The position numbers and the translations under genes were made by a program. A DNA stretch of 33,706 nt, taken from Candidatus Bipolaricaulis sp. (lineage in GTDB: Bacteria; Bipolaricaulota; Bipolaricaulia; UBA7950; UBA9294). The stretch lies in the NCBI GenBank assembly GCA_028713635.1, contig JAQTNX010000008.1:1-33706 (forward strand), read 5' to 3'. The stretch's first letter is position 1, and each line of letters begins with the position of its first letter. This document shows positions 690 through 17,960 of this stretch, piece after piece. The notes under the pieces were generated by a model. The model had not been told where the DNA came from. It did not search any database and worked only from the letters and a program-made list of their open reading frames with translations.

Positions 690-2315
690 ATGCGTTACGA
701 CAGGGCCAGCTACGAGAAGGAAGTCAGGGAGTTCGTCTGGAACGTCCCTGCCAATTACAACATCGTCGATGTCGTGGAGGGACACGCGAAGAAGAACCCG
801 AACAAGCTCGCCATCTTGTGGGAAGACGCCGAAGGGAACGCGAGGAAGATGACCTACGGTGAGCTCGTGGACGGGATGCACCGGTTCGGCGACTCCCTCA
901 TGCGGCTTGGCGTGAAGAAGAACGAGCCGGTGATGCACATCTTGCCTCGGATTCCGGAGGCGCACATCGCCCAACTCGGAACGTTCGTCGCCGGCGGGGT
1001 CGCGGTGCCATGCTCCGAGATGCTGAAGGAGAAGGAGATCCTTTACCGCTCCCAAGCGGCCGGCGCGAAGGTGATCGTCGCCGAGGCCTCGACGGCCGGG
1101 ATCGTCGATTCCGTGCGAGGCCAGTGCCCGCTCCAGACGTTCATCCTGATCGGCTCGGACGAGCCGCGGACGGGGTGGCTGCGGTTCGAGGACCTCGTCG
1201 CGTCCGGTACCCCGAGCGTCACGAAGGTTCCCCTCGTCGCCGAGGATCCGATGACGATCAACTTCACCTCGGGGACGACGGGGAATCCGAAGCCTGTCGT
1301 GCACAAGCACCACTGGATGTACTGCCACAACCGCATCACCGCGCAGTATTGGTACGACGCCAACGAGTCGGACGTCGTCTGGGCCACGACGGCGCCGGGA
1401 TGGGCGAAGTGGTACTGGAGCCCGGTCGGCGTCTCGCTGACCACCGGCGCCACGCAGCTCATCTACAACGGCCGTTTCGACGGGGAGCGGTACCTTGAGC
1501 TTCTCGCGAAGTACAGGATTACCAAGCTTTGCTGCACGCCGACCGAGTACCGTCTCTTCGCCCAGGTTCCGGACATGGGGAGGCACACGATCTACCTGAA
1601 AGACGCGCTCTCAGCCGGTGAGCCGCTCAACGTCGAGCCCATCGAAGCGTTCAAACGCGCGTTCGGCGTGACCATCCGGGACGGCTACGGCCAGACGGAG
1701 AGCGTCTGCTTGGTCTGCAACCTGCCCGGGATGCCGGTGAAACCGGGAGCCATGGGCCTTCCGACACCGGGGCCCGGCGTCGCCTTGATCGACGAGAACG
1801 GGAACCCCGTGAAGCAGGGTGAGGTCGGCGAAATCGCCCTCAAGCCGGGGAATCCGGCGATCTTCGACGGGTACTGGAAGTCGCCGGAGCTTGACAAGGA
1901 CGTCTTCTCCAAAGGCTGGTACCGGACCGGCGATCTCGCCAAGGCTGACGAGGATGGGTACTTCTTCTTCGAGGGCCGAGCCGATGACGTCATGCTGACG
2001 TCGGGGTACCGGATCGGCCCGTTCGAGGTCGAGGACGCGCTCGTCAGCCACCCGGCCGTCGTCGAAGCCGCCGCCGTCGCCGCACCGCACCGCGAGCGCG
2101 GCGAGATCGTCAAGGCGTTCATCATCCTGGCGAAGGGATACTCGCCGTCGGACGCCCTGACGAAGGAGCTGCAGGACCACGTGAAGAAAGTCACGGCGCC
2201 GTACAAGTACCCGCGCGCGATCGAGTACGTGACCGAGCTCCCCAAGACAGCGAGCGGGAAGATCAAACGCGCCGAGCTGAAGAGAAAGGAATGGGAGGGT
2301 TGGGACAAACGGTGA
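690..2315 (+). CDS. AMP-dependent acyl-CoA synthetase (acetyl/medium-chain type)
   Basis: ORF 354..2315; likely start MRYDRASYEKEV at 690. Motifs INFTSGTTGNPKPVVHKH, YGQTES, YRTGDLA, PKTASGKIKRAELK. Confidence 0.93.
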   Translation: MRYDRASYEKEVREFVWNVPANYNIVDVVEGHAKKNPNKLAILWEDAEGNARKMTYGELVDGMHRFGDSLMRLGVKKNEPVMHILPRIPEAHIAQLGTFVAGGVAVPCSEMLKEKEILYRSQAAGAKVIVAEASTAGIVDSVRGQCPLQTFILIGSDEPRTGWLRFEDLVASGTPSVTKVPLVAEDPMTINFTSGTTGNPKPVVHKHHWMYCHNRITAQYWYDANESDVVWATTAPGWAKWYWSPVGVSLTTGATQLIYNGRFDGERYLELLAKYRITKLCCTPTEYRLFAQVPDMGRHTIYLKDALSAGEPLNVEPIEAFKRAFGVTIRDGYGQTESVCLVCNLPGMPVKPGAMGLPTPGPGVALIDENGNPVKQGEVGEIALKPGNPAIFDGYWKSPELDKDVFSKGWYRTGDLAKADEDGYFFFEGRADDVMLTSGYRIGPFEVEDALVSHPAVVEAAAVAAPHRERGEIVKAFIILAKGYSPSDALTKELQDHVKKVTAPYKYPRAIEYVTELPKTASGKIKRAELKRKEWEGWDKR

Positions 2316-3160
2316 TCCGTCGTACGGCACTCGCGACCGCCGCGGCGTTTCTCGGCCTCTGCGCCGTCGGCGCGGCCGTTCACGCGGCTGGTATCTACCT
2401 TGGCGTCGAGGCGTACACGCTGGACATGACCGGGACCTGGAGTCAGGTCCCGGTTGCTTTATCAGCTTCCTTCGGCGAGATCGAAGCCATGCTCCTCGAC
2501 CAGGGAGTCCCGGCGGAGGACCTGGCGGAGTTTTCGGCGGACTTTGACGCGGCGATGGCTGAGATCGAGGCGACGCTGGAGGCTCTCCCTGTCCTTGTCC
2601 CGGTTCCCCTCCTCGCGCTCGGCGTCGAGATCCCTCTCCCGTGGGTCGTGATCGACGGCGTTCGGCTCTCGGTCGGATTCCTCGACGATCGGTTCGTCCG
2701 CGGCGTGGCGAGCGGTGTGGCCGGCGTCGAGATCCCGGAGCCGCTCGTCGACGAGGCGATCGACGTCGGAGATGACACGGCGTCCCTCACGGCGGACGTC
2801 GCCTTCTCGACGTGGATGGTCTCCGTCGACGCCGTCAAGCGGCTCGATCTCGTCTTTCTCGGAGCCGACTTCTTCCTGGGTGCGGACGTCCTCTGGGGCT
2901 CGATCACGCCCTCCGTCGAGGTCGACGTTCCGGAGGGGTGGAGCGATGGAGTCGACGCGGCGCTCGAGGCGCTGCACCTCGATGAGATCTCGTGGAGGGG
3001 CTTCGGCCTTCACGCGGGAATCGGGTTCGAGGTTGGATTGCCGTTCCTCCGCTTGTATGCCGAGGGACGCTTCGTTCTCCCCGTAGGCCAAGCGATTGGC
3101 TGGTGGAATCTCCACGCCGGCGAGCTCGCCGGCGCCCTTGGGATGGTGATCCGGTTCTGA
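2312..3160 (+). CDS. Secreted/outer-membrane-like hypothetical protein
   Basis: ORF 2291..3160; GTG at 2312 overlaps upstream TGA. Signal-peptide-like VIRRTALATAAAFLGLCAVGAAVHAAG, beta-rich remainder. ATG 2291 is an alternative start. Confidence 0.7.
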   Translation: MIRRTALATAAAFLGLCAVGAAVHAAGIYLGVEAYTLDMTGTWSQVPVALSASFGEIEAMLLDQGVPAEDLAEFSADFDAAMAEIEATLEALPVLVPVPLLALGVEIPLPWVVIDGVRLSVGFLDDRFVRGVASGVAGVEIPEPLVDEAIDVGDDTASLTADVAFSTWMVSVDAVKRLDLVFLGADFFLGADVLWGSITPSVEVDVPEGWSDGVDAALEALHLDEISWRGFGLHAGIGFEVGLPFLRLYAEGRFVLPVGQAIGWWNLHAGELAGALGMVIRF

Positions 3161-3543
3161 TGGACGACCGAGAGCTTCTCCGCCTCGCGAACGAAGCCCG
3201 TCGCCGGGCGTACGCCCCGTACTCGAAGTTTCCCGTGGGGGCGGCCCTCCTGTGCGCGGACGGGACGGTCGTCACGGGGGTCAACGTCGAGAGTTCCGTC
3301 AACGGGCTTTCGCTCTGTGCCGAGCGCGTCGCGCTCTTCAAGGCGATCTCCGAAGGGAAACGGGACTTCGTGAGGATCGCCGTGTCGTGTGAGTCCGACC
3401 ATTGCCGCCCATGCGGCGCGTGCCGCCAGGTTCTCTACGAGCACGCGCCGCACCTCGAGATTCTCATGGGGTGTCCGAAGGGCGACTTCGTGCGCGCAAC
3501 CATCGCCGAGCTCCTGCCTGACGCATTCACCCTCAAGCGCTAG
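3160..3543 (+). CDS. cdd: Cytidine deaminase
   Basis: MDDRELLRLANEARRRAYAPYSKFPVGAALL...CAERVA...PCGACRQVL zinc-binding motifs; ATG overlaps preceding TGA. Confidence 0.93.
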   Translation: MDDRELLRLANEARRRAYAPYSKFPVGAALLCADGTVVTGVNVESSVNGLSLCAERVALFKAISEGKRDFVRIAVSCESDHCRPCGACRQVLYEHAPHLEILMGCPKGDFVRATIAELLPDAFTLKR

Positions 3544-3577
3544 GGCGCAACTGGGCTGTGGCCTCCGACGGCGAAGC

Positions 3578-4897
3578 CTAACTGCCTCTTTGCACACGCT
3601 CGACGATCAGCGGCGGAGCCACACACGGCGCGCCCTTCTGATCGATGTCGTAGGCCGACTCGACCAGGCGCCTTGCCTCCGTCAGGTTCTTCGGATCGTT
3701 CACATGAAGGACCGCCAGGACCCCTGTCGCCTCGACCCTCTCGCCGACCTTGCGTACAACCTCGACCCCGACGGCCGGATCGATCGCATCGTCCTTCGTT
3801 GTGCGGCCGGCTCCCAAAGCGTTGGCCGCACGGCCGATCGAAAGGGCGTCGAGGCGGCGCACGGTACCTGCCGCGCGCGCGGAGACCGGGATGGAATCCC
3901 CTGCCTGAGGCAGGAGCCCCGGGTCCTCGATGACTCGAACGTCACCGCCCTGGTGAGCAATGAGGTCACGGAACTTCGCCAGTGCCGAGCCGTCGGCAAG
4001 CAAGGCACGCAGCGTCGCAACGGCCGATCCGTGGTCCGGTGACCGGCCGGAGAAGACGAGGAGCTCGGCGCCGAGCTCGCAGCACAGCGTCGCCAGGTCC
4101 TCGGGCCCTCGACCCTGAAGGGTCTCGATCGCTTCTCGCACCTCGAGCGCGTTGCCGACGGTGCGGCCGAGCGGCTGCGACATGTCGGTGATGACGGCCG
4201 CCATCTTCCGGCCGAGTTTCGCACCGATGGCGACCAACGCCCGCGCGAGGCGCCGCGAGTCTTCGAGCCGCGGCAGGAAGGCCCCGGATCCCGTCTTGAC
4301 GTCGATGACGATCGCTTGTGCCCCGCCCGCGATCTTCTTCGACATGATCGACGCGACGATGAGGGGCAGCGAGTCCACGGTCGCCGTGACGTCGCGGAGC
4401 TCGTACAGAATGCGATCGGCGGGAACCATGTCCGCCGTGTGGTCAGCGAGGGCGAGCCCCGTACGTCGAACGAGGTCGAGGAAGCGAGACCGGTCGAGGT
4501 CTGTGCGGAACCCAGGGATCGACTCGAGCTTGTCGATCGTGCCGCCCGTGTGGCCGAGGGCGCGTCCCGAGAGCTTTCCCACTTTGAGTCCCGCCGCTGC
4601 GAGAAGCGGGATAAGGACGAGGGTCGTCTTGTCTCCTACGCCTCCGGTCGAGTGCTTGTCTACGGTGTACCCGCCAAGGTCGCTCGGAGTGAACATCGAG
4701 CCGGAGTGGGCCATGACGTCGGTCAAGGTTGCCGTCTCTTCGTCGCTCATGCCGCGCAGGAAGAGGGCCATGAGAAGCGCAGACACTTGGTAGTCGGGGA
4801 CGGATCCCCGAACCATCCCGGAAACCCAGAACTCCGTCTCCTCCCTCGACAGCGTTCCCCCGTCTCTCTTCTTGCGAATGATGTCGACAACGTTCAT
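3578..4897 (-). CDS. pdp: Pyrimidine-nucleoside (thymidine) phosphorylase
   Basis: MNVVDIIRKKRDGGTLSREETEFWVSGMVRGSVPDYQVSALLMALFLRGMSDEE...KHSTGGVGDKTTLVLIPLLAAAGLKVGKLSGRALGHTGGTIDKLESIPGF. Confidence 0.95.
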   Translation of the reverse strand: MNVVDIIRKKRDGGTLSREETEFWVSGMVRGSVPDYQVSALLMALFLRGMSDEETATLTDVMAHSGSMFTPSDLGGYTVDKHSTGGVGDKTTLVLIPLLAAAGLKVGKLSGRALGHTGGTIDKLESIPGFRTDLDRSRFLDLVRRTGLALADHTADMVPADRILYELRDVTATVDSLPLIVASIMSKKIAGGAQAIVIDVKTGSGAFLPRLEDSRRLARALVAIGAKLGRKMAAVITDMSQPLGRTVGNALEVREAIETLQGRGPEDLATLCCELGAELLVFSGRSPDHGSAVATLRALLADGSALAKFRDLIAHQGGDVRVIEDPGLLPQAGDSIPVSARAAGTVRRLDALSIGRAANALGAGRTTKDDAIDPAVGVEVVRKVGERVEATGVLAVLHVNDPKNLTEARRLVESAYDIDQKGAPCVAPPLIVERVQRGS

Positions 4898-13542: not shown

Positions 13543-14712
13543 CTACGGTGCGCCAAGCGTATACTGCGCCCGGACCGCGGCGATCTGGTCGCCCGTGCCG
13601 GCCGTCGGGACAACGATCGAACCGTCGAGGATTCCCGCCTCCAGCTTGTCGACGGCATCCCAGATCCAGCCAGGGATGGTTGCGCGGTTCTGCGCCCAGT
13701 TCCCGATGATGGTGTAGAAGTCATCCGGGTTCACGGATCCGCCCTTGATGCCGAACTGAATGAAGTCCGCCAGGTCTCCGACCTTGCTGATCGCGACGCC
13801 GCCTTCCTTCAGCCCCAAGCTGATAACGCCGGCCTTGAACTGACCCTTGACGACGGCCTCGACGGCCATGTAGCAAGCCGTGTCGACGCGCTTCATTCCG
13901 CTCGCAATGCCGTGGAATCCGTTGCCGATGAAGTCCTGGTTCGCGTCAACGCCGTAGAAGTACGGAGGGCCGAAGAGCGTGCCGAGGTTTCCGTGAGCTT
14001 CCGCCACGGCCTCGTGATCGCCCACGCCAAGCGGACCGGCGACGTTGTAGATGCCGACGGCGCCCTGCGCGAGCATGGCCTCAGAAGCGGCCTTTCCGAG
14101 GGCGATGTCGCTGAACGTTCCGGTATAGGTGTAGAGCAGGTTGACGTTCTTCGCAGCTCCCTCGTGGGATGCATACGCCTTCAGACCCCAGTCCATGCCG
14201 AAGCGATACCCCGCTTCGAAGTGCCATAGGACCGGGATCTCGATGCCGAGAACGATGCCCGCGGCCGAGTAGCCGTGATAGGCCGCGCTCATCGCCGCGA
14301 GGCCGCCGATCAGGGCCGACATCTCGTTCTCGCGGAACACGAAGTTCATGATGTTGGGCCCGGTGATGTAGTCCACGTCAATGATCGCGAACTTCTGGTT
14401 CGGGAACTCCGCCGCCGCCGCCGCGAGCGCGTCACCGAGCAGGAAGCCGACACAGATGATCAAGTCATAGTCGCCGGTGCGCGCGACGTTGCGCAGGTTC
14501 GGCAGGTAGTCCGCTCCCGTGGCGCACTGCACTTCGACCATCTGAAGGCCGAAGTCCTTCGCCGCCTCGTCCGTCCCCTTGAAGCCCATATCGTTGAACG
14601 ACAAGTCGCCGCGTCCGCCAACGTCCAGGACGACGGCCACTTTTCCTGCCGCCATGCCGAGCAAGGACACGCCCAAGATCAGCATGAGGGATACTACGAG
14701 CAGCCTTTTCAA
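13543..14712 (-). CDS. BMP-family ABC transporter substrate-binding protein
   Basis: TTG start at 14712 preceded by GGAGG (GGAGGTCGCGTTGAAAAGG): LKRLLVVSLMLILGVSLLGMAAGKVAVVLDVGGRGDLSFNDMGFKGTDEAAKDFGLQ... Confidence 0.92.
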   Translation of the reverse strand: MKRLLVVSLMLILGVSLLGMAAGKVAVVLDVGGRGDLSFNDMGFKGTDEAAKDFGLQMVEVQCATGADYLPNLRNVARTGDYDLIICVGFLLGDALAAAAAEFPNQKFAIIDVDYITGPNIMNFVFRENEMSALIGGLAAMSAAYHGYSAAGIVLGIEIPVLWHFEAGYRFGMDWGLKAYASHEGAAKNVNLLYTYTGTFSDIALGKAASEAMLAQGAVGIYNVAGPLGVGDHEAVAEAHGNLGTLFGPPYFYGVDANQDFIGNGFHGIASGMKRVDTACYMAVEAVVKGQFKAGVISLGLKEGGVAISKVGDLADFIQFGIKGGSVNPDDFYTIIGNWAQNRATIPGWIWDAVDKLEAGILDGSIVVPTAGTGDQIAAVRAQYTLGAP

Positions 14713-14773
14713 CGCGACCTCCTTGGTCTTCCTGATTCCACCGGAGTTCCCGGTGCCCGCACGTTCGAGTTCC

Positions 14774-14802
14774 ATTCTACAGTGGACCGTGCTCAGTGAC
14801 AA
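14774..14802 (-). promoter_or_regulatory. Sigma70-like promoter of the BMP operon
   Basis: Minus strand TTGTCA-17 nt-TAGAAT. Confidence 0.65.
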
Positions 14803-14893
14803 ACATCACAGTGAAGCCCTCAGTGACGCAAGATCCAGTTTGGGACTGCAAAGCAGCACCTTCGGCCAGGCTGCCTATCTGCCTGACAGGTTG

Positions 14894-14901
14894 GCTTGCC
14901 T
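14894..14901 (+). repeat. Target-site duplication, left copy (GCTTGCCT)
   Basis: Abuts left TIR; identical to 17685-17692. Confidence 0.88.
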
Positions 14902-14931
14902 AACGGCTATACCTTTAGTGCAGCGGGGAGG
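14902..14931 (+). repeat. Left terminal inverted repeat
   Basis: AACGGCTATACCTTTAGTGCAGCGGGGAGG. Confidence 0.85.
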
Positions 14932-15099
14932 GTTGCCCCGCGAAGGGGGAAGGCCGTGACGGTAGCGGGGGATTCAGGATTCCGGAGTTCGTGAGTAGTC
15001 GCGAAGTGTAATATACGTTACAATGCGAGCGAAGGGACGCGGACAAGAGCGGAGACTTCTCCCCGGTCCATAGGACCGCCCCCGAAGTGACGGTGGGTC

Positions 15100-15960
15100 T
15101 TAAGGCGCGCCCTTTCGCTTTTTCCGCGCCCATTGGACGCGGCTTCGCGTAGGAAACTTGATGACGCCGTACCCCTGGATAACACCTCTAGAGTCAGCGC
15201 GGAACTTCCCAGCGATACGACGGAAGTAGTCATACGTCGGGAGCTTGCCGAGTCCCATCGTCTCCCACTCTTCTCCATGCTCGACGAATTGGCGGAACAC
15301 GTTGTACGCAACGAGATCTGCTACCTGGATCATGTGCGATCGTGCAGAGTCGACGAGCTTGATGCGCGGCCCCAGAGACGTGAATGTGAACCCGCGCTGG
15401 AGAGCTGACCCATAGGATATCAACCTGGCATGGTGACGTCGGAGATTCTCTGAATACTGGTTACCGTGTGGTGTAGCGCCACTGGTGTCATCAATGCTTA
15501 CCGTGGCTACTCCGTGTCCGCGAAGCTCGTTCTCGACGCGCTGTGCCAGGATCTCATACGCCACAGCGGGCGGATACCACGGGTTAGGCGGGTAGTCCTC
15601 CTGCATGTGCACCTTGTCGATTACTGCCGCAATCAGCAGAAGATCAGTCTGGATCACTGCGCCGTAGAAGTCGGACACGAAGATATCAAGCTTCTCGTCT
15701 GTGAGCCCATATGGTTCGAGGTAGTGGAGCTTCCGTTCTTTTGGGATTCGCAGCCAGTCGGACTTGACCTCTACGGTGTCATCTCCGAAACACTCCAGCT
15801 TGAGCGTGATCAGGCGTTCAGAGAGACGTCCAGAGTCCGCAATGCGAATGAGGACTCCGCCGTAAACGAAGTAGCGGGAGTTACCTCGCCCATACTTCCT
15901 CGTCCCGACAGCGTATTCCTTCGTCCCAGAGTCATCTACGTAGAGCACATGTGTGAACAT
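15100..15960 (-). CDS. DUF3800-type protein (passenger gene)
   Basis: MFTHVLYVDDSGTKEYAVGTRKYGRGNSRYFVYGGVLI...; N-terminal YVDDSG and C-terminal SHMIQVADLVAYNVFR typical of DUF3800; GGAG 7 nt before ATG. Confidence 0.85.
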   Translation of the reverse strand: MFTHVLYVDDSGTKEYAVGTRKYGRGNSRYFVYGGVLIRIADSGRLSERLITLKLECFGDDTVEVKSDWLRIPKERKLHYLEPYGLTDEKLDIFVSDFYGAVIQTDLLLIAAVIDKVHMQEDYPPNPWYPPAVAYEILAQRVENELRGHGVATVSIDDTSGATPHGNQYSENLRRHHARLISYGSALQRGFTFTSLGPRIKLVDSARSHMIQVADLVAYNVFRQFVEHGEEWETMGLGKLPTYDYFRRIAGKFRADSRGVIQGYGVIKFPTRSRVQWARKKRKGAP

Positions 15961-16009
15961 GCAGACACTCCGGCAGCCATCACATGTTACGCAACTGTTG
16001 CCCTAGCGT

Positions 16010-16147
16010 CTACTTGCTTTTCTTCGGCTTATCCCAGTACGGATTCTTGCACTTCGGGCAGACGCGCGGTTTCTCCTTCCAGTCACGCGGCACCCACGTA
16101 TGCCCGCACCGCTCGCACTTATAGCCCTTCAGCATGATCTCAGCCAT
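16010..16147 (-). CDS. 45-aa zinc-ribbon protein (passenger gene)
   Basis: MAEIMLKGYKCERCGHTWVPRDWKEKPRVCPKCKNPYWDKPKKSK; CxxC...CxxC. Below the ORF-track length cutoff; same strand as and 49 nt upstream of DUF3800. Confidence 0.82.
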   Translation of the reverse strand: MAEIMLKGYKCERCGHTWVPRDWKEKPRVCPKCKNPYWDKPKKSK

Positions 16148-16156
16148 AGTACCGCC

Positions 16157-16185
16157 ACTGTACTACCATAACGGTTCCCCGTCAA
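16157..16185 (-). promoter_or_regulatory. Putative promoter for zinc-ribbon/DUF3800 genes
   Basis: Minus strand TTGACG-17 nt-TACAGT. Confidence 0.5.
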
Positions 16186-16201
16186 GTAACACCCTAAAGG
16201 G

Positions 16202-16230
16202 TTGACATTCTCCTTACTCTTCGCTATAAT
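16202..16230 (+). promoter_or_regulatory. Perfect consensus sigma70 promoter of the transposase gene
   Basis: TTGACA (16202-16207), 17-nt spacer, TATAAT (16225-16230); AAGGAGG at 16241-16247, ATG 16253. Confidence 0.9.
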
Positions 16231-16252
16231 ACGATTCGGTAAGGAGGCAGAC

Positions 16253-17101
16253 ATGGACAAGATCACAAGCCTAGTCGAAGCGCGTAAGCAGTTCGCTACC
16301 CAGGAGCAGTGCGAGCGGCACCTACGGGACATGCGCTGGCCGGATGGCGTGACTTGTCCGCGTTGCGGCTCGAAGGCCGTCACCTATATGGAGTCCCGCC
16401 ACCAGTGGCAGTGCGAGTGCCGCTACCAGTTCTCCGTCACTAGCGCGACAGTCTTCCACAAGACGCACATTGACCTCCCGCGCTGGCTGATGGCCGTCTG
16501 GTTGGTCTGCCACTCGCCCAAGGGCATTTCCTCGGCCCAGCTTCAGCGTGAGCTTGGCGTGACCTACAAGACGGCGTGGTACATGACGACGCGCATCCGC
16601 CGCGCAATCAAGAACGCCAACTTTGGTGTGAAGCTCGACGGCATCCTGGAGGCCGACACGACGATGGTCCCGGCTGCACAGGGCAAGAAGAAGCCGACAT
16701 GGGGCAACGCGGGGCATGACGTGCTTGGGATCGTCTCCCGAGACGCTGCGGCCATCCGCATGGAGATCGTTCAGCAACTCAGCCAGCGTGAGATCATGCG
16801 CGTCTTCGCCAAGCACGTTGGCACCGTCAAGCGCATCTTCACGGACGAGGCCCCGGCGTTCTATCAGCTCTACACGATCGCCCCGCATGAGACGATCAAG
16901 CACGCCGAGCGGTATGCCCTGGGCCGCATCCACGTGAACCACGTAGAGAACGCCTGGTCGCTCTTCAAGCGCGGGCTACACGGCGTCTACCACTTCGTCA
17001 GCGCCAAGTACCTCCAGGACTACCTCGACGAGTTCGCTTTCCGTGGGTCGCACAGGGGAGAGCGGGAGGCTATGGTGAACCTGGTCCTGGCGTGCTGCTA
17101 G
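16253..17101 (+). CDS. IS1595 (ISXO2-like) family transposase
   Basis: MDKITSLVEARKQFATQEQCERHLRDMRWPDGVTCPRCGSKAVTYMESRHQWQCECRYQFSVTSATVFHKTHIDLPRWLMAVWLVCHSPKGISSAQLQRELGVTYKTAWYMTTRIRRAI; candidate catalytic motifs EAD, TDEA, HVNHVENAWSLFKR. Confidence 0.94.
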   Translation: MDKITSLVEARKQFATQEQCERHLRDMRWPDGVTCPRCGSKAVTYMESRHQWQCECRYQFSVTSATVFHKTHIDLPRWLMAVWLVCHSPKGISSAQLQRELGVTYKTAWYMTTRIRRAIKNANFGVKLDGILEADTTMVPAAQGKKKPTWGNAGHDVLGIVSRDAAAIRMEIVQQLSQREIMRVFAKHVGTVKRIFTDEAPAFYQLYTIAPHETIKHAERYALGRIHVNHVENAWSLFKRGLHGVYHFVSAKYLQDYLDEFAFRGSHRGEREAMVNLVLACC

Positions 17102-17155
17102 CTGTAGTCGTTTCCATCCTCGGGTGCTATAGTCGGGCATCCGAGAATAACGGTG

Positions 17156-17470
17156 ATGCTCGTGGCTGAATGGACGCTAGAGACGGCGCGGAAGTGGGTA
17201 CTGCTGTTTCTCCGTCAACACCCAGAAGCCCATCCAGGCGGACCTGGCATTGTGATCTCGTCAGGAGCGCCACCTATAGGTGCCCCGCTAGACCCTGTGC
17301 TCATGCGGGCTATATCCTGGTTGATCGAGCATGGGCTCGTCACCGGAAGTCAGGTCACGACGCATGCAACGGAGCAGGAGCCGTTCGGCTTCACGACCGT
17401 CTGCCTGACAAAGCATGGTCTATCCCTTGCCGATCAACTCGCGCTCGATTTGCCTGACAAGAGCGAGTGA
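17156..17470 (+). CDS. Hypothetical protein (passenger ORF)
   Basis: MLVAEWTLETARKWVLLFLRQHPEAHPGGPGIVISSGAPPIGAPLDPVLMRAISWLIEHGLVTGSQVTTHATEQEPFGFTTVCLTKHGLSLADQL...; GTG 17153 is an alternative start. Confidence 0.6.
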   Translation: MLVAEWTLETARKWVLLFLRQHPEAHPGGPGIVISSGAPPIGAPLDPVLMRAISWLIEHGLVTGSQVTTHATEQEPFGFTTVCLTKHGLSLADQLALDLPDKSE

Positions 17471-17581
17471 GTTGGCCGCCTTCTGAACAGGGTTCGCTTG
17501 CCAGGCGCTGAAAGCCCTCCGCTTCTCCTCTATGTCCTGTAGCGGGGCGATCTGTTCCACAAGGAACTGATGAGCGGCCAT
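17420..17581 (-). CDS. Small hypothetical protein (passenger ORF)
   Basis: MAAHQFLVEQIAPLQDIEEKRRAFSAWQANPVQKAANSLALVRQIERELIGKG; part of ORF 17420..17776, but a start beyond 17684 would lie outside the element. Upstream GTG/TTG starts possible. Confidence 0.45.
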   Translation of the reverse strand: MAAHQFLVEQIAPLQDIEEKRRAFSAWQANPVQKAANSLALVRQIERELIGKG

Positions 17582-17654
17582 TGCGCCCTGAATCACTAGG
17601 AATCCTGACAACGATTTCTCCCAGTCGAATCCCCCCGCCGCCACAGCGGGTTCT

Positions 17655-17684
17655 CCCCCCCGCTGTAGTAAAGGGATGGACGTT
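17655..17684 (-). repeat. Right terminal inverted repeat
   Basis: Reverse complement AACGTCCATCCCTTTACTACAGCGGGGGGG. Confidence 0.85.
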
Positions 17685-17692
17685 GCTTGCCT
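17685..17692 (+). repeat. Target-site duplication, right copy (GCTTGCCT)
   Basis: Abuts right TIR; identical to 14894-14901. Confidence 0.88.
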
Positions 17693-17960
17693 GGCTGTCT
17701 GCCAACACAGCGAAATGCCGAGAGCAGCTGAAGAAGCACGAGGCTGACTCCCGGGAGCGTGGCCCAAGGACAACAAGGCGTGGCCGCGAGGAGAGGCGAC
17801 AGCGAAACCGCTCAGACAGCGGCGGGCCGGTCACGATATCGGTGCGGAGAACGTCGACGCAGACGGGGCGTCCGATCTCCTCCCTCTCCCGCACGTGCGC
17901 TGTGGGCTGTTGGACGGCGTCCCGCGAAGCGCGTGCGGAGAGACAGCGACAGAAGCACGG

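Follow-up and report, generated by a model that had tools for sequence, protein, structure and literature searches.

The IS1595 family, with the groups IS1595, IS1016, ISPna2, ISH4, ISSod11, ISNwi and ISNha5, comprises elements of about 1 kb with short terminal inverted repeats (TIRs), an 8-bp target-site duplication (TSD) and a transposase combining a zinc ribbon with the DDE_Tnp_IS1595 domain. The N-terminal Zn_ribbon_IS1595 is a feature of every group but IS1016 (PMC8101967). Two members of the family, MTnSag1 and tISCpe8, have 25-bp TIRs and 8-bp repeats, and a circular intermediate was reported for the former (PMC5704250); the latter is a lincomycin resistance element, as stated by a title in the reference list of the same paper.

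In the window, i.e., the whole stretch of 33,706 nucleotides that was analysed, an element of 2,783 bp (14902–17684) was found, which is like these systems in its transposase, TSD and TIRs, but which is, at 2.8 kb including cargo, larger than the family members of about 1 kb. Its transposase is 31–34% identical to those of the named plasmid IS1595 elements with which it was aligned. We are confident that it is an IS1595-family transposon of the 'transporter IS' type, whose insertion site on a Candidatus Bipolaricaulota chromosome is flanked by the genes for a BMP-type lipoprotein and a glycosyltransferase. It is a new passenger-carrying representative of a family that was itself already known. 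A comparable arrangement is present in the ISRhtr1-annotated element on plasmid 3 of NT-25 (L094, 1876–3999), where an IS1595 transposase, an 8-bp TSD (TTTGGGCA) and a TIR of the same type (ACGGCTTATCCCTTTAGCTCC) accompany a two-gene cargo; it differs in that this cargo consists of a ParE toxin and CopG and that its transposase is not a member of the Bipolaricaulota clade but groups with the Firmicutes elements.

Boundaries, transposase and proposed mechanism

The perfect 8-bp direct repeat GCTTGCCT is located on either side of the element, at 14894–14901 (left TSD) and 17685–17692 (right TSD). Abutting these, the left TIR AACGGCTATACCTTTAGTGCAGCGGGGAGG (14902–14931, plus strand) and the right TIR (17655–17684, minus strand, where it reads AACGTCCATCCCTTTACTACAGCGGGGGGG) are identical at 24 of 30 positions without a gap, starting at the TSD-adjacent base on both sides; the ends of relatives are in the same register. 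This configuration, described in the initial annotation by direct reading, was confirmed by an exhaustive TSD/TIR pair search around the transposase, in which 14902–17684 was the top-ranked pair (TSD 8/8, TIR 21/26). As a control for chance, 60 dinucleotide-block shuffles of the region were used. These contained a mean of 154 perfect 8-bp repeat pairs each, so that the 8-bp repeat alone is weak evidence, and revealed a best TIR identity of 16/26 (n = 60). TSD and TIR together are far beyond chance, and the boundaries are borne out to the base. The GC content of the element is 58.6% vs. 63.9% and 67.2% in the flanks.

The transposase (16253–17101, plus strand; 282 aa) was assigned to the IS1595 family of DDE transposases, as had been proposed from the sequence, by matches above the cut-offs to NF033547 (3.5e-45), to the DDE_Tnp_IS1595 domain PF12762 (1.3e-24) and, at the N-terminus, to Zn_ribbon_IS1595 PF12760 (2.2e-11). 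Alignment of 19 transposases revealed D135 and D198 to be invariant; E232, with K at +7 (K239), is the probable third catalytic residue, and E260/R264/R268 are also present. Thus, the domain, the zinc ribbon, the catalytic residues, the 8-bp TSD and the TIRs, which define family membership, were all found. The open reading frame is intact and has a ribosome-binding site. A sigma-70-type consensus promoter matching TTGACA-17-TATAAT at 12/12 positions (16202–16230, plus strand) is predicted 51 nt before the ATG of the transposase gene, which upholds the earlier reading of a promoter-equipped, intact gene; most relatives have an equivalent at −46 to −64. In the present element as well as in three relatives (G002A, C45 and G031_138), the transposase gene is internal, flanked by cargo on either side, and a promoter of its own precedes it at a similar distance. 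In the compact relatives (C1a, C1b, G009, G019, G020 and others, e.g., L062, L066 and L067), the −35 motif TTGACA is situated within the transposase-proximal TIR. The idea, taken from that arrangement, of an internal remnant TIR before the transposase was rejected, since the internal sequence is too little TIR-like.

In the proposed mechanism, the N-terminal zinc ribbon of the transposase would recognise the ends and the DDE core would catalyse the reaction; the transposase would pair both ends of ~25–30 bp, mobilise all DNA between them and join it to a target whose strands are cut 8 bp apart. Given the family to which the transposase belongs, DDE-catalysed joining at an 8-bp stagger can be regarded as practically certain. 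A circular intermediate in a copy-out/paste-in pathway, by analogy with MTnSag1, is somewhat favoured.

Locus, copy number and state of the element

In a congener (G002, contig C94), the lipoprotein and glycosyltransferase flanks are ~180 bp apart and free of the element. The alignment of the left flank continues to the target and through it (GACAGGTGCGCATCCCTGCGCT vs. GACAGGTTGGCTTGCCTGGCTG in the window). The empty site sought in relatives was, thus, recovered in part: judged from the alignment, C94 is an element-free orthologous locus and not a base-perfect empty site, its right flank aligning poorly, with ~275 bp of intergenic DNA that could not be aligned with the window.

Named relatives of the transposase assign the window to Candidatus Bipolaricaulota, and the host is an uncultured bacterium. 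The host assembly, a 2.3-Mb draft of 213 contigs at 88% completeness, contains one full copy of the element and four diverged transposases, two of them on C1 and one each on C74 and C45. Neither the host assembly nor 100 genomes of the phylum revealed a second copy of the full element, and there is, therefore, no direct sign of recent movement. A lack of other copies had been named in the initial annotation as a refuting outcome; this applies to the full element, but diverged elements whose ends are of this type do exist. A detectable transposase is carried by 19 of the 60 genomes searched, the host included; relatives were not found in viral contigs.

The single copy, with no identical counterpart in its own genome or in the 100 phylum genomes, and the match of the ends at only 24/30 would agree with an immobile relic, i.e., a single past insertion whose activity was lost. 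We consider this possible, if rather unlikely. A similar divergence of the ends is normal among intact relatives, and the perfect TSD, the intact 282-aa frame with D135, D198 and E232, and the 12/12 promoter followed by a ribosome-binding site argue against decay. On its sequence features, the element is probably intact.

Cargo genes and their possible role

The passenger genes announced for the interior were found. A gene at 15100–15960 (minus strand) encodes a 286-aa DUF3800 protein (PF12686, E = 2.2e-15; 58.1 bits vs. a gathering cut-off of 21); members of this family are predicted RNase H-fold nucleases, located beside some CRISPR effectors (PMC10910872, PMC12669027). Lying 50 bp upstream, co-directional with it and divergent from the transposase gene, a second gene (16010–16147, minus strand) codes for a 45-aa zinc-ribbon protein of the form CxxC...CxxC, which gave only sub-threshold zinc-ribbon/FmdB matches. 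Two short frames complete the set. The 105-aa frame (17153–17470, plus strand) is without a family match and had zero homologues among the 100 Bipolaricaulota genomes. The 53-aa frame (17420–17581, minus strand, ATG at 17581) overlaps it convergently and is a weak candidate; in a longer version of 118 aa, its start would fall outside the element.

Homologues of the DUF3800 protein were detected in only two genomes of the phylum besides the host among the 100 (33% and 27% identity). The former, in G035, has one in-frame stop and was rejected as evidence of a shared element, because that genome is without a matching transposase. DUF3800 relatives were not found in plasmids, and the combined DUF3800 and zinc-ribbon cargo was present in no other IS1595 element examined. 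A known defence system was rejected based on a PADLOC search without a match, as was a DUF3800-associated non-coding RNA, where no Rfam covariance model matched up to E = 5 in 14700–17900. The structure of the left non-coding end of the element is not unusual (z = −0.41).

The zinc-ribbon gene and then the DUF3800 gene fill the slot adjoining the transposase gene, which RHH genes hold in related elements. By analogy with the toxin-antitoxin-like or PIN genes carried by other IS1595 elements, the most likely role of the pair would be that of a protective or an addictive/selfish two-gene cassette, made up of a DNA-binding or zinc protein and an RNase H-fold nuclease, a proposal to which we give about an even chance; the pair may also be an inert hitchhiker. 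Passenger genes between the ends define a transporter IS, and DUF3800 and the others are missing from all related elements. From sequence comparison, we infer that the pair would be dispensable for movement. The opposite reading, that the two genes serve transposition itself as an accessory nuclease and a DNA-binding protein, draws on the predicted nuclease fold and the small zinc protein being encoded divergently beside the transposase; it is improbable, given that both genes are missing from every other IS1595 element examined and that other genes occupy these places in close relatives that share the end type.

MTnSag1 and tISCpe8 share the transposase family, the TIR length and the 8-bp TSD with the present element, which would allow for an integrative mobilizable element of their kind. 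They are mobilizable by conjugation, whereas the present element carries DUF3800, the zinc ribbon and orphan frames and no mobilisation gene, the frames being without a relaxase or mobilisation protein domain; an assignment to this type is, accordingly, very improbable.

Related elements, their ends and their cargo

The TSD/TIR search delimited related elements by 8/8 TSDs in L054 (two), L056, L059, L061, L062, L064, L066, L067, L069 and L070, where the pairs of L056 and L061 were not the best-scoring ones and were chosen by eye for a perfect TSD and family-type ends; the elements in L057 and L058 have a TSD of 6/8. TSDs of 8/8 were also found for two Firmicutes elements (L014 and L016), ISPepr2, ISRm32 and the ISRhtr1-annotated copy. 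An 8-bp duplication with TIRs in the same register is, thus, present in at least ten further Bipolaricaulota elements, two Firmicutes elements and named plasmid elements, in agreement with the duplication length given for the family in the initial annotation. That the repeats arose by chance around ordinary chromosomal genes, for which only the abundance of perfect 8-bp repeats speaks (154 pairs expected in such a region), is refuted in practice by the pair search, by a TIR match never attained in shuffles, by elements elsewhere bounded by the same end type and by the absence of the block from the congener locus.

The ends of the relatives are in a common register and begin with AA, GG, CA, GA, AG, CG, AC or TA. 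In the tree, the transposase of the present element is placed within a ten-member Bipolaricaulota clade (support 100/100), whose ends are of the NNCGNNTATCCC type and, read in one register, start with AA, GG, CA or GA; those of the elements named in ISfinder start with CG (ISPepr2), GG (ISRm32) and AC (ISRhtr1-annotated copy). Because the first two bases vary inside the clade, the AACG start is a minor variant and not a group character, and the suggestion of an undescribed subgroup, made since the ends do not begin with GG, had to be abandoned. The ends of ISNwi1 and ISSod11, which we take to be 'ggnnatTAT' and 'nnnGcnTATC', respectively, both resemble those of this clade and are regarded as a lead only.

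Transposases and ends of this kind are also present in other elements of Bipolaricaulota and of several further bacterial groups, which have 8-bp duplications and unrelated cargo. In the closest relative, G002A (G002 contig C83; L057, 1182–4000; 2,819 bp), the AACG ends, the internal transposase gene and the cargo on both sides are as in the present element, and the end domains of the transposases are 76–94% identical in stretches of 30 residues. Unlike the present element, G002A has a frameshifted transposase gene with a middle domain from another lineage, a 6/8 TSD and a cargo of RHH and proteasome-like-related genes instead of DUF3800 and the zinc ribbon; homology between the two comprises only the transposase gene (74% at the nucleotide level over 874 bp; 16241–17100) and the ends. 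Likewise, C1a and C1b are 87% identical over 920 bp on the transposase side and 87% over a 23-bp end, and have different cargo.

Cargo families recur among elements whose transposases differ. RHH/CopG genes were found in C45, G002A and G031_138, P63C in G025 and G014, a PIN gene with a partner of ~300 aa in G019 and G031_236, and a 314-bp stretch (69%) is common to C1b and G025. In L066, L067 and L098, the PIN-domain gene lies behind an uncharacterised protein of 266–309 aa; the pairs of the two Bipolaricaulota elements are homologous, and their PIN gene is similar, too, to the one in the Roseomonas plasmid element. A weakly proteasome-like protein of 250–261 aa is encoded in C1a, G002A and the next element, G002B (L054, 6454–7239; L057, 1222–1974; L100, 4028–4804), the proteasome-subunit match being obtained for one member at E = 0.0012, below the cut-off.

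Abutting insertions were observed in several places. On contig C1 of the host (L054, 6432–8150 and 8159–10606), two IS1595 elements with transposase halves of 87% identity and different cargo abut as CGCCTCTT-A-CGCCTCTT-B-CGCCTCTT, where the middle repeat is common to both. On C83 of G002 (L057/L100), element A (1182–4000) is followed by the 8-bp spacer AGCAGGCG, another AACG end from 4009 and further transposase remnants; the far end of this second element was not found. On C349 of G031 (L059, 6799–9076), an element is separated by 30 bp from the point where another end-like sequence (GGCGCTTATCCTTTAGGG) starts, which suggests a nested or clustered insertion. The G002A transposase (L057, 1974–2821) is 76–94% identical to that of the present element in residues 1–120 and 241–288 and 26–46% between, its middle matching C1a/C1b at 61–90%; the C74 transposase (L055, 4–735) has a similar mosaic break.

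As a tentative and still doubtful model, the Bipolaricaulota IS1595 elements may form a modular, cargo-exchanging population, in which end domains, core and cargo would reassort and new copies would prefer exact abutment (DR-A-DR-B-DR), reusing the 8-bp duplication and enabling exchange.

The present work provides the base-exact delimitation of a new IS1595 element with passenger genes, from a phylum for which metagenomes are the main source of knowledge. Such elements are widespread in the phylum and have a rotating cargo of predicted nucleases, RHH regulators and proteins without known function, and a way in which IS-like elements may acquire and swap cargo, open to testing, is suggested by the mosaic transposases and the pairs of abutting elements.
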